NCBI GenBank assembly: GCA_019240395.1
Contig: JAFAYM010000147.1
Location: 1-47,421, forward strand
Length of the DNA: 47,421 nucleotides
Reading direction: 5' to 3'
DNA from: Acidisphaera sp.
GTDB taxonomy: Bacteria; Pseudomonadota; Alphaproteobacteria; Acetobacterales; Acetobacteraceae
This document shows positions 10,404 to 28,095 of this stretch, one piece after another. The first letter of the stretch is position 1, and each line of letters begins with the position of its first letter. Below the pieces are notes generated by a model that made no database searches, was not told the DNA's origin, and saw only the letters and a list, made by a program, of their open reading frames with translations. A program made the translations under genes and the position numbers.

Positions 10404-10587
10404 GCTCTAACACCAGTTCTCGGGAGCGCCGACTCATGGCCGTCATATCAGCGAAGCGGGAATCCATGTGAGGCGTGGACCCCCGCTTTCGCGGGGGTGA
10501 CCATAATGGGTGGCGCTCTGTGCGACCTCGTATAACTGTTAGGTTTGAGAGCGTGAGTGAGACCTGCGGTGATTCCGCCTTCGGTCA
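10404..10587. other. Intergenic region with a small palindrome
   Basis: No gene is apparent. CCCCCGC-TTTC-GCGGGGG at 10480-10497 forms a strong hairpin, with GCGGGAATCCA nearby on its left. This is the same general palindrome type as the GIY-YIG-associated repeats. Confidence 0.6.
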
Positions 10588-16954: not shown

Positions 16955-18730
16955 ATGCATCTCTACCGTACTCATAGCTGTGGCGAACTGCGCGCCGCAG
17001 ATGCCGGCACCGAGGCCCGCCTGTCGGGCTGGGTGCATAGCAAGCGCGACCATGGCGGGCTGCTGTTCCTCGACCTGCGCGACCATTACGGCCTGACGCA
17101 GATCGTCTTCGCCGCCGGCACGGAGGCTTTCGCGGCGGCCGACCGGGCGCGTCCGGAGAGCGTGCTCACCGTCACCGGCCAGGTGGTGCTGCGCGAGGGC
17201 GGGACGGTCAATCCGAAGCTGCCGACCGGCGAGGTGGAGCTGCGCGCCGCGGCGGTGGCGGTGCAGTCCGCCGCCGAGGTGCTGCCGATCCAGGTCGCCG
17301 GCAGCGAGCAGTTCCCCGAGGAATTGCGGCTGCGCTATCGTTTCATCGACCTGCGCCGCGAGCGCATCCACCGCAACATGCTGTTGCGCGCCGGGGTGAT
17401 CGCCAGCATCCGGCGGCGGATGATCGCGCAGGGATTCACCGAGTTCCAGACGCCGATCCTGACGGCCTCGAGCCCCGAGGGCGCGCGCGATTTCCTGGTG
17501 CCGGCGCGGCTGCATCCCGGAAAGTTCTATGCGCTGCCGCAGGCACCGCAGCAATTCAAGCAGCTCTGCATGGTCGCCGGCTTCGACCGCTATTTCCAGA
17601 TCGCGCCGTGTTTCCGCGACGAGGCGAGTCGCGCGGACCGCTCGCCGGGCGAGTTCTATCAGCTCGATTTCGAGATGAGTTTCGTCACCCAGGAGGACGT
17701 GTTCGCGACGCTCGAGCCGGTGATGGCCGGCGTGTTCGAGGAGTTCGGCGGCGGCCGTGCGGTGTCCGCCACGCCGTTCCCGCGCATTCCCTATGACACG
17801 GCGCTGCTGGAATACGGAACGGACAAGCCCGATCTGCGCAATCCGCTGAAGATCACCGACGTGACCACGCAGTTCGCCGGTTCTGGCTTCGGCCTGTTCG
17901 CGCGCATCGCCGCGTCGGGCGGGGTGGTGCGGGCGATCCCGGCGCCGGGGGCCGCGTCGCAACCGCGCTCCTTCTTCGACAAGCTGAACGACTGGGCGCG
18001 CGAGCAGGGCGCGGGCGGGCTCGGCTACATCGTCTTCGAGGCGGACGGCGGCAAGGGTCCGATCGCGCGCAACCTGGAGCCGGCGCGAACCGAGGCGATC
18101 CGCGAGGCGTGCGGGATGCGACCGGGCGATGCCGTGTTCTTCGCCGCCGGCAAGCGCGAGGACGCGCAGAAATTTTCCGGCACGGTGCGCACGCGGCTCG
18201 GCGAGGAGCTGGGGCTGATCGAGCGCGACGCCTTCCGCTTCTGCTGGATCACCGATTTTCCGATGTACGAGCTGAACGAGGAGTCCGGACAGATCGATTT
18301 CAGCCACAACCCGTTCAGCATGCCGCAGGGCGGGATGCAGGCGCTGGAGACGCAGGACCCGCTGACCATCAAGGCGTTCCAGTACGACATCGTCTGCAAC
18401 GGCATCGAGCTGTCCTCGGGTGCCATCCGCAACCACCGGCCGGACATCATGATCCGCGCCTTCGAGATCGCCGGCTACACCGCCGCGGAGGTGGAGGCGC
18501 GTTTCGGTGGGATGCTCAATGCGTTCCGATACGGCGCGCCGCCGCATGGCGGGTCGGCGCCCGGCATCGACCGCATCGTCATGCTGCTGGCCGACGAGCC
18601 GAACATCCGCGAGGTGATCCTGTTCCCGCTCAACCAGCAGGGGGAGGATTTGATGATGGGCGCACCGGCCGAGGTACCGCCGGAGCGGCTGAAGGAGCTG
18701 TCGCTCAGGGTGGAACTGCCAAGGAAGTAA
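16955..18730 (+). CDS. aspS: Aspartyl-tRNA synthetase
   Basis: A 591-residue bacterial class II synthetase. It has an N-terminal OB-fold anticodon domain ([24 protein letters not shown]) and the catalytic core with motif 1 near 165-185 and motif 2 ([24 protein letters not shown]). The bacterial GAD insertion lies around 290-400, and motif 3 is [17 protein letters not shown] 16955 begins the conserved [12 protein letters not shown]. The last ~30 codons are duplicated at 19958-20050, with a different final 14-16 codons, so the present C-terminus may have been supplied by inserted DNA. It should still be active because the divergence lies after the catalytic core. Confidence 0.97.
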
Positions 18731-18752
18731 GGCGAGGGTACTGCAAACGGTT

Positions 18753-19136
18753 CGTCATTCCCGCGCAAGCGGGAATCCAGCAGCGCCCTCCGCGTGATAG
18801 GAGCGGCGGCATGCGGGCTCCGTGTGTCTACATCCTGGCCAGCAAGCGCAACGGCACGCTCTATGTCGGGGTGACCAGCGAGCTCGTACGGCGGGTTTGG
18901 GAACACAAGAGCAGCGAGATCGCGGGATTCACGAGGAAATATGGGATCAAGCTTCTGGTCTACGTGGAAGTGCACATCACCATGTCCGCAGCGATCGTGC
19001 GTGAAAAGCAGATCAAGAAGTGGCGGCGCACCTGGAAAATCGCTTTGATCGAGCGTGACAACCCGGAATGGCGGGACCTCTATAACGAGATGACCGGGGC
19101 GGCACCGGGTGGATTCCCGCTTGCGCGGGAATGACG
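18753..19136. mobile_element. GIY-YIG unit bounded by perfect 27-bp inverted repeats
   Basis: A 27-base sequence at 18753-18779 (core ATTCCCGC-GCAA-GCGGGAAT, itself palindromic) recurs as its exact reverse complement at 19110-19136. The GIY-YIG gene fills the interior and its stop codon lies inside the right repeat. A shortened version with the same two ends follows at 19241-19361. Confidence 0.65.
18811..19134 (+). CDS. Small GIY-YIG (URI-type) endonuclease
   Basis: A 107-residue single-domain protein of the UvrC/URI nuclease superfamily (COG2827-like). The GIY-YIG core reads VYILASKRNGTLYVGVTSELVRRVWEHK, with variant GIY and YIG triplets (VYI, YVG) and conserved Arg and His in the helix. 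A basic C-terminal part includes REKQIKKWRR. ATG 18811 has AGGAG about 10 bases upstream. The last nine codons (…GFPLARE) are encoded by the right 27-bp repeat, so the gene and repeat are physically merged. By family it may nick or cut DNA; in this setting it may act on the flanking palindromes. Confidence 0.85.
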   Translation: MRAPCVYILASKRNGTLYVGVTSELVRRVWEHKSSEIAGFTRKYGIKLLVYVEVHITMSAAIVREKQIKKWRRTWKIALIERDNPEWRDLYNEMTGAAPGGFPLARE

Positions 19137-19240
19137 GATGAGAGCCGGTATCGGCCACGGACAAGCTTTGGCGCTCACGGGGACGCTGCTCCTGGCCGCG
19201 CTGGGTCAGGGAACGCGCCGCGGTGCTGCACGCACCCCTT

Positions 19241-19361
19241 CGTCATTCCCGCGCAAGCGGGAATCCAGCAGCGGGTGATAGAGCGGCGGCATGCGGCGGG
19301 ACCTCTATAACGAGGTGGCCGGGGCGGCACCGGATGGATTCCCGCTTGCGCGGGAATGACG
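19241..19361. mobile_element. Internally deleted copy of the GIY-YIG unit (MITE-like)
   Basis: A 121-bp unit with the same perfect 27-bp inverted repeats (19241-19267 and 19335-19361). It contains only the 5' leader and the 3' end of the GIY-YIG gene. The junction corresponds to loss of about 18817-19071. The sequence after it (19362-19430) also resembles that after the full unit (19137-19212), so the pair may have arisen by tandem duplication. Confidence 0.7.
19291..19359 (+). pseudogene. Remnant of the GIY-YIG gene, in-frame deletion
   Basis: A 22-codon reading frame, MRRDLYNEVAGAAPDGFPLARE, fuses the first two codons of the nuclease gene to its last twenty or so. The missing piece is 255 bp (85 codons), so the frame is kept. 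It lacks all catalytic residues. Confidence 0.7.
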
Positions 19362-19523
19362 GTTAAGAGTCGGTGTCGCCCACGGAGATGACTTGGCGCT
19401 TGGGGACTCTGCTCCTGGCCCCGCCGGGGTCAGCAGTCTCCAGGCCCGTCAGTTGAGGCGGCATGAATTTGACCAGCCATTCCGACGCAGCACGCGGATC
19501 GCAGGGCGGCGCGGGCGCGGAAT
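19362..19523. other. Intergenic sequence with duplicated flank
   Basis: The first ~70 bases are a diverged copy of 19137-19212 (shared TGCTCCTGGCC and GGGTCAG). The remainder to 19523 shows no recognisable gene or signal. Confidence 0.55.
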
Positions 19524-19946
19524 TTGGACCTGCTGATGATCGATGTTAGCGATCGGCGGATGCTTCGCCGAGGGGTCGGCTTGTTTTTCGTCCTGCCTAT
19601 ACTCGGGCCACCTATTGCCGGGTCCGCATATTACGGGCTCACGTTGGGCCTCACCGCTTCACGCCCCTGGTACGAGTTACTCCTGATTTGGGCCATGGTA
19701 TCGATGAGTCCGCCCCAATGGTTCTTCTCATACTTGCTCGCGGGCTTTGTTCCGCTTCTGGCTGGCGTTCTGTCATGCTTCAGTGCTTGGCTGATCCCGA
19801 GCGCTTCGGCCAGGATCATCGTAACTACCCTCATAGGAGCGGGCTTGGCTCCAATATCGAAGCTGGACGATCCTGCTGCGCTTGCGATCGCGGGCGGCAT
19901 CGCCTCCCTGGCCTGTAGCGCCGTCGTCGAGAAACTCTCCGCTTAA
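19524..19946 (+). CDS. Hypothetical multi-pass membrane protein
   Basis: Up to 140 residues with about four hydrophobic segments (near 17-35, 48-70, 72-92 and 95-125). There is no family that I recognise. The first possible start is TTG 19524; ATG 19536 (MIDVSDRR) may be the true one. Its base composition is visibly less GC-rich than its neighbours. It lies between the GIY-YIG units and the displaced aspS 3' end, which suggests it arrived with the inserted segment. It could be a genuine cargo gene or an unexpressed open frame. Confidence 0.55.
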   Translation: MDLLMIDVSDRRMLRRGVGLFFVLPILGPPIAGSAYYGLTLGLTASRPWYELLLIWAMVSMSPPQWFFSYLLAGFVPLLAGVLSCFSAWLIPSASARIIVTTLIGAGLAPISKLDDPAALAIAGGIASLACSAVVEKLSA

Positions 19947-19957
19947 GCCGCCCGAGC

Positions 19958-20050
19958 GAAGATTTGATGATGGGCGCCCCGGCCGAGGTGCCGCCGGAGC
20001 GGTTGCGTGAGTTGTCGCTCAAGCTCCGCACGCCTGAAGAAAGAAAGTAG
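19958..20050 (+). pseudogene. Displaced 3' end of aspS
   Basis: The sequence repeats 18644-18700 of aspS nearly exactly at its start and keeps the aspS frame: [20 protein letters not shown], then a different ending (LKLRTPEERK) and a stop. The aspS gene itself ends LRVELPRK. There is no start codon or catalytic region, so it is a fragment. It marks the right border of the ~1.2-kb segment between the two copies. Confidence 0.8.
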
Positions 20051-27978: not shown

Positions 27979-28017
27979 GCCCTGGGATTCCTGGGGGCCG
28001 CTGCCCCGACTCATAAC

Positions 28018-28051
28018 CGTCACCCCGCTTTCGCTTTCGCGGGAATGACGG
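28018..28051. repeat. Solitary GCGGGAATGACG-type palindrome
   Basis: The sequence starts CCGTCACCCCGC and ends GCGGGAATGACGG, forming an imperfect hairpin with the same outer arms as the inverted repeats around the GIY-YIG gene. It lies between the convergent hldA-like and trxA genes. Confidence 0.65.
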
Positions 28052-28095
28052 CTATGAGTCGGCGCGCCCGAGAACTGGTATAAGTCATGGGGTCT

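Follow-up and report, generated by a model that had tools for sequence, protein, structure and literature searches.

What is a small nuclease gene doing between two inverted repeats that are themselves palindromes, and do the gene and the palindromes belong together as one element? The question arises in the window, by which we mean the whole 47,421-nucleotide stretch of Acidisphaera sp. DNA analysed here, where a 384-bp unit begins and ends with 27 bases that are reverse complements of each other at every position (Table 1). The unit encloses a GIY-YIG gene whose C-terminal codons, reading GFPLARE, are the right-end repeat itself, and next to it lies a 121-bp unit (19241-19361) with the same ends, again exact reverse complements over 27 bases, and an exact in-frame loss of 85 codons. 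These points of the earlier note all hold. The answer that we favour, with moderate confidence, is that of a selfish cassette reduced to its minimum, in which a GIY-YIG endonuclease gene lies between inverted copies of the palindrome that its own product would recognise, a CGTC REP.

Table 1. Positions in the window of the two units, their flanks and the separate MITE-like element.
Feature	Position	Strand	Basis
Left end, CGTC-1 REP (CGTC, 8-bp stem, 4-nt loop, CCA tail)	18753..18779	+	Pattern scan and folding
GIY-YIG nuclease gene, 107 codons, final seven codons (GFPLARE) from right REP	18811..19134	+	ORF, Pfam
Right-end CGTC-1 REP, identical to left end in inverted orientation	19110..19136	-	Sequence comparison
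Right flank, copy 1; repeated downstream of miniature	19137..19209	+	Alignment 19070-19209 vs 19295-19433, 86.5%
Left REP of miniature	19241..19267	+	Pattern scan, sequence comparison
GIY-YIG gene remnant, 22 codons, 85 codons deleted in frame	19291..19359	+	ORF comparison
Right REP of miniature	19335..19361	-	Pattern scan, sequence comparison
Right flank, copy 2	19362..19433	+	Alignment to copy 1
MITE-like element copy	10410-10545	+	End search
MITE-like element copy, truncated	28015-28081	-	End search

The 121-bp miniature has a history of its own. As the earlier note cautioned, its likeness to the full unit runs on past the right ends, the aligned stretch covering 141 bp. Because the doubling includes some 70 bp of sequence outside the right end, the miniature is most simply derived from a local tandem duplication and a subsequent internal deletion between short direct repeats, a course of events in which transposition would play no part and which we consider quite probable. 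Judged by eye, a GCGG tract and a GGCGGG tract meet at the deletion junction. However, this explanation serves for the miniature of the window only: two other loci of the genome, on contigs C51 and C108, bear other deletions, and positions 19198-19240, immediately before the miniature, are also similar to the flank of the C51 locus.

On a larger scale, the 3' end of aspS (18644-18707) is repeated 1.3 kb downstream at 19958-20021 (87.5% over 64 bp), and the two copies bracket both GIY-YIG units along with a 140-codon ORF (19524-19946) in which no Pfam family exceeded its cut-off. The bracketed block looks as if it had been inserted together with a copy of the aspS gene end. A known RNA family was rejected as the identity of the region, an Rfam search of 18500-19700 giving nothing above the gathering score and two sub-threshold matches that were taken as chance.

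Both ends of the unit have the anatomy of CGTC-1 REPs as defined by Di Nocera (2013; PMC3733652), including a stem that starts with AT, and the left-end copy is predicted to fold into a DNA hairpin of -9 kcal/mol (z -4.6). In the sections of that survey drawn on here, the family includes the neisserial dRS3 repeats, its members occur mostly as head-to-head dimers and the class is reported without a dedicated transposase. At up to 3 mismatches, the palindrome is found 4 times in the window, compared with a mean of 0.01 in shuffled sequence, and at 46 places in the genome (4.52 Mb, 303 contigs), compared with 0 for the reversed pattern; a palindrome arising by chance was rejected on these counts. 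The ends are thus a genome-wide repeat that is not confined to the window unit, a point on which the earlier note had staked its proposal, and the genome carries them in tens of copies with head-to-head dimers predominant. In tag, stem, loop, CCA tail and preferred pairing they are like the CGTC-1 REPs and dRS3 repeats, the difference being that here a nuclease gene is tied to the REPs.

The gene product scores 59.5 bits with the Pfam GIY-YIG profile (PF01541; cut-off 22.6), the sole Pfam family above cut-off in this protein, which thus shows no HUH Y1 transposase domain in that search. GIY-YIG enzymes have two Tyr, an Arg, a His, a Glu and an Asn with catalytic roles, and the residues presumed to fill them here (Tyr7, Tyr18, Arg28, His32, Glu65 and Asn84) are each conserved in 153-156 of the 156 sequences compared, a set that comprises 155 loci (146 distinct domains, some being repeats of one gene) and P0001. 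By score and residues the protein belongs to the GIY-YIG superfamily. By sequence, the window protein groups with UPF0213-type proteins, which are small GIY-YIG proteins (PDB 1zg2, 1ywl). Two other identities were rejected for it, phage cargo with homologues in 0 of 50,697 phage records, and a defence gene with a sole PADLOC match at E 0.033.

One homologue bears directly on the question of a palindromic partner. The Neisseria gonorrhoeae protein is 56% identical over 91 amino acids, its gene sits amid dRS3-type CGTC repeats, and we take it to be the founder protein of the Ssn family. Chenal, Veyrier and colleagues are said to have described Ssn proteins in Nature Communications in 2025 as GIY-YIG site-specific single-stranded nucleases directed at the NTS repeats of Neisseria. 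The enzyme reportedly acts on a sequence with hundreds of copies, thousands of homologues are said to have matching sequences, and the report is said to deal with cutting and with transformation, the Neisseria enzyme reportedly modulating natural transformation. The window enzyme, likewise a single-domain GIY-YIG protein, probably belongs to the Ssn family, and this homology, the dRS3-type surroundings and the reported Ssn activity together suggest a cognate nuclease-hairpin pair. What is described below of the REP-bounded unit, of its deleted forms and presence/absence alleles, and of paralogs with stems of their own would go beyond the Ssn report, unless it contains them too.

The earlier note had suggested that small GIY-YIG genes sit near such palindromes in other proteobacteria, and across genomes the two do go together. 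Among named records, the best 80 of 571 confirmed relatives include 74 loci with a CGTC REP within 300 bp of the gene and 45 with an inverted pair (a plus-strand REP before the gene and a minus-strand REP after it), compared with 79 REPs in 509,434 bases outside those zones; these records are mostly metagenome assemblies whose labels may err, and loci picked by closeness to a query with a REP-coded C-terminus may favour REP-flanked cases. A broader class set of 75 loci, 49 plus a further 26 (nearest-relatives search; L041, L050 and L059 left out), came to 64 after removal of 9 duplicates and 2 loci with short flanks. A REP accompanies the gene at 38 of these 64, on both sides at 21 and in inverted orientation at 16, which is 8.5 times the local density. 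The other 26 lack a strict CGTC REP; a number of these are flanked by the GTCATTGCGAG class or by repeats of other kinds, and some have none.

The association is also seen in a test that presupposes no motif. When the 250 bp before the gene were compared with the 280 bp after it, an inverted match at E 1e-4 was present at 37/64 class loci and 57/75 named loci (5 of the 80 were dropped), and shifted windows on the same contigs gave 0/90 and 0/270. With flanks exchanged between loci, an inverted match was retained at 1/64 class loci and at 39/75 named loci, a stem common to many of the named loci accounting for the second figure. At the level of whole genomes, with gene and REP counts taken as the same draw of 143, the gene is matched at E 1e-10 in 51 genomes and strongly (best E of 1e-28 or below) in 43. 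Strong matches occur in 24 of the 31 genomes that are REP-rich, defined as having at least 5 hits of a CGTC-1 REP covariance model (counted up to a ceiling of 53 per genome), versus 19 of the 112 others (Fisher p 6e-10, kinship ignored); conversely, 7 REP-rich genomes are without a strong homologue and the 19 just mentioned have one while falling short of REP-rich by the covariance model. Up to 11 gene copies are present per genome. A homologue is present in 16 of the 60 nearest relatives, and 11 of the 60 have at least one palindrome with the window stem (up to 2 mismatches). Overall, the association spans records of several phyla and many stem types. A link between GIY-YIG genes and REPs was not found in the portions of the open-licence literature that were retrieved, including those of PMC3733652, PMC9465073, PMC12306157, PMC10319059, PMC1564403 and PMC1839093.

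The stems themselves covary. Near the genes, all seven inner pairs are formed in 146 of 158 stretches of the form CGTCA-N18-TCCA, a pattern that does not demand pairing, versus full pairing in only 23% when the arms are exchanged between loci. The nearest REPs on the two sides have the same stem at 34/55 loci (permutation maximum 20). Between paralogs of one genome, among the 42 loci in 12 genomes listed, a stem is common to 2 of the 18 pairs with REPs, and one of these two is formed by the sister units of the window's own genome. A gene placed between REP copies, and related genes that often come with their own version of the palindrome, point to the enzyme as probably the missing partner of these REPs.

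The unit is also dispersed within its own genome. A GIY-YIG profile search of that genome gave four matches, three of which lie between CGTC-type palindromes, two with the stem ATTCCCGC and one with the class GTCATTGCGAG; the fourth, in a 642-codon frame, is presumably UvrC. The second full unit is at C185:16905-17312, an unrelated locus, and is 83% identical over 416 bp to the unit of the window (contig C250), with homology that covers 18748-19139 and ends at the outer REP ends. The C185 unit has a GAAA loop at two of its three REPs, and the loop of the window unit is GCAA. The third gene, at C185:30171, is flanked by the other palindrome class, GTCATTGCGAG...GCAATCCAG. The C51 and C108 loci hold REP-bounded units without a full gene, and their deletion endpoints differ. 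Unrelated loci with sharp common ends, as expected of a transposable element, are seen for C250 and C185, C51 being an exception: it has about 40 bp outside the left REP, and another stretch, in common with the window, and because this outer flank is shared the edge of the unit is not always a REP.

The earlier note had seen here an autonomous element with a MITE-like derivative. That reading is supported in part: the unit is present at two unrelated loci, and deleted forms do exist at C51 and C108; the adjoining miniature fits tandem duplication plus deletion. Several findings speak against active transposition. A direct repeat of 2-12 bp, as a target-site duplication would give, was looked for directly outside the ends of this genome's five units and found at none. 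The two full units are 17% divergent, and among 83 paralog pairs in 11 genomes this pair alone reaches 80% protein identity and 0 reach 90%, which speaks against a recent burst. With neither target duplication nor recent burst, the unit, if it moves, moves rarely.

Among related strains, a comparison that the earlier note had proposed, sites with and without the unit are seen in Sphingobium, Azospirillum and Shinella. On Sphingobium plasmids, the unit lies between fnrL and a response regulator gene in seven records, four of them aligned; in the filled copy of TomTYG73 the gene is interrupted by a gap of one base. Inspection by eye of the unit-less sites of TomTYG74 and TomTYG64 found a single palindrome with CGTC towards both sides, imperfect in TomTYG74, which looks like a fusion of the outer half of one end REP to that of the other and could be an excision scar. 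The other two unit-less relatives have no CGTC palindrome at the site by eye, and a standard CCA- or CC-tailed REP is present at 0/4 of the unit-less Sphingobium sites. The empty site of TomTYG72 has a CTCTCC...GGAGAGGG stretch instead (by eye), which belongs to another palindrome class. In Azospirillum lipoferum 4B the gene is found between sufB and sufC with a REP pair on each side, and A. ramasamyi, A. oryzae, B510 and A. thermophilum have short sufB-sufC spacers with no REPs. Likewise, two Shinella plasmids carry the gene with REPs and a third, about 80% identical, carries neither. No CGTC palindrome was found at the Azospirillum and Shinella empty sites. Set against a homing endonuclease, whose gene would lie within an otherwise intact recognition site, the empty sites give a mixed picture, with a solo palindrome in two Sphingobium strains and no CGTC palindrome in the others. 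These filled and empty comparisons amount to few independent events.

These presence/absence alleles bear on a second reading, in which nothing is mobile: the enzyme would be a resident regulator or barrier that uses the REPs as binding sites, and selection would keep REPs close to it, perhaps because they serve in autoregulation or in forming transcript ends. Such a role would accord with an active site as well kept as that of a useful enzyme (153-156 of 156 sequences for the presumed residues), with the position of the N. gonorrhoeae homologue (56% over 91 amino acids) amid dRS3-type repeats, and with the absence of bursts and target duplications. It sits poorly with the finding that an unrelated locus holds a further copy between REPs and with REP-bounded deletion products that have no gene, and also with presence and absence between relatives and up to 11 copies per genome. 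We regard this regulatory reading as unlikely, and retain the selfish cassette as the preferred one. Where the earlier note envisaged transposition, the filled and empty sites in related strains speak for it, and the absence of target duplications in five units and of a recent burst speaks against it.

A third reading turns on the other REPs of the genome, many of which have a different carrier. The earlier note listed a solitary palindrome of the same type at 28018-28051; this proved to be part of a truncated copy of a separate dispersed element of about 135 bp, ATACCAGTTCTC...CTCGTAT, and is not in a member of the GIY-YIG unit. Such an element begins with the REP in 22 of 23 aligned GAAA-loop REP copies. 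Several copies are truncated at the right; in complete ones, two CGTC REPs that differ from each other are paired head to head. The element has its own ends, ATACCAG...CTCGTAT, and the end sequence has 57 matches genome-wide at up to 3 mismatches versus 2 for a reversed control; the first REP is intact in 11 of the 31 copies read. Both ends were read in 22 copies, of which 8 have identical flanking trinucleotides, mostly TTA or TAA. Shuffling gives a mean of 3.9, and a count of 8 is attained in 36 of 2000 shuffles, which makes three-base TNA duplications suggestive only. The element looks like an ordinary MITE, and we presume that it is perhaps one of an IS5-type transposase.

Given that at least 22 other REPs lie inside this MITE-like element, much of the REP population of the genome may have another carrier, and the GIY-YIG enzyme was set aside as the spreader of those REPs. 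The finding also raises the possibility that a conventional transposase spreads REPs in general, with the GIY-YIG gene a chance passenger between two of them. Besides the REP copies inside an element with 57 end matches of its own and the identical trinucleotides at 8 of 22 copies, the GAAA loop at two of the three REPs of the C185 unit would be expected of such a history. Yet the flanks of the gene-bearing units are without the ends of the 135-bp element, the window unit has a different loop (GCAA), and an association across several phyla and many stems is not what chance would produce, shifted controls giving 0/360. We consider a passenger gene very improbable.

Our best reading is that of a cognate nuclease-REP system that would work in the manner of RAYT-REP. 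The enzyme, probably of the Ssn type, would recognise the REP as a single-stranded hairpin and cut at or near it. Cuts at REPs of the cassette ends, or at distant REPs, would be followed by repair or recombination that may occasionally copy a REP pair elsewhere, whether the gene goes along or not. A link from cutting to copying we infer from the REP-bounded dispersal, the deletion forms and the presence/absence of the unit. Internal deletion of the gene would yield REP-bounded miniatures, and fusion of the outer halves of the end REPs would leave one palindrome.

The likeness to REP/REPIN-RAYT (TnpA-REP) systems lies in short palindromes that bear a 4-base tag and pair head to head, in a small nuclease gene with these same palindromes on its flanks, and in non-autonomous forms. 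In contrast to those systems, the tag here is CGTC rather than GTAG, the enzyme has a GIY-YIG fold rather than that of an HUH Y1 transposase, and the units are sometimes bounded by single inverted REPs. With the MITEs of insertion sequences the unit has in common its inverted ends and the internally deleted derivatives of a gene-bearing form; it differs in that the ends are themselves palindromes, that target duplication was not found and that the enzyme is no known transposase.

CGTC REPs are a large class of bacterial repeats whose spreading agent was left open in the sections of the 2013 survey drawn on here (PMC3733652). If every stem type has its own nuclease, one protein and one oligonucleotide suffice to test the question of spreading. 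If the proposal is true, the RAYT-REP way of life has arisen with an unrelated enzyme fold, and many natural enzyme-hairpin pairs would be at hand.

Finally, a parallel arrangement involves another nuclease family. In Azospirillum lipoferum and, by coordinates, Shinella sp. PSBB067, the sufB-sufC gap is occupied by a GIY-YIG gene; in Sphingomonas parapaucimobilis the occupant is a DUF559 gene. The gap is a possible insertion hot spot. The DUF559 gene in this gap of a Sphingomonas plasmid prompted a comparison of the flanks of DUF559 (PF04480) genes by the test described above, which found inverted flanks at 18/29 class loci (1 of 30 was dropped for a short flank) and at 12/25 further loci from a phylum search, with shifted controls at 0/56 and 1/50. 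CGTC REPs lie near 0/29 and 1/25 of these genes. This arrangement may be a more novel lead than that of the GIY-YIG genes. More tentatively, and with more doubt than confidence, RAYT-REP might be one case of a general selfish element that consists of a small nuclease of any fold and its own palindrome, GIY-YIG enzymes having CGTC and DUF559 enzymes CTCTCCC...GGGAGAGGG and each paralog its own stem, all of which would spread by hairpin cutting and copying during repair. The repeats that flank DUF559 genes are mostly CTCTCCC...GGGAGAGGG, and GGGTGAGGG or a similar tract frequently comes next; of the 12 loci with inverted flanks in the phylum search, 10 have such a tract. The pattern CCCTCTCCC-N2..12-GGGAGAGGG has 0 copies in four hand-picked genomes without DUF559 genes, and 69, 28, 325 and 2 copies in four hand-picked genomes that bear them.
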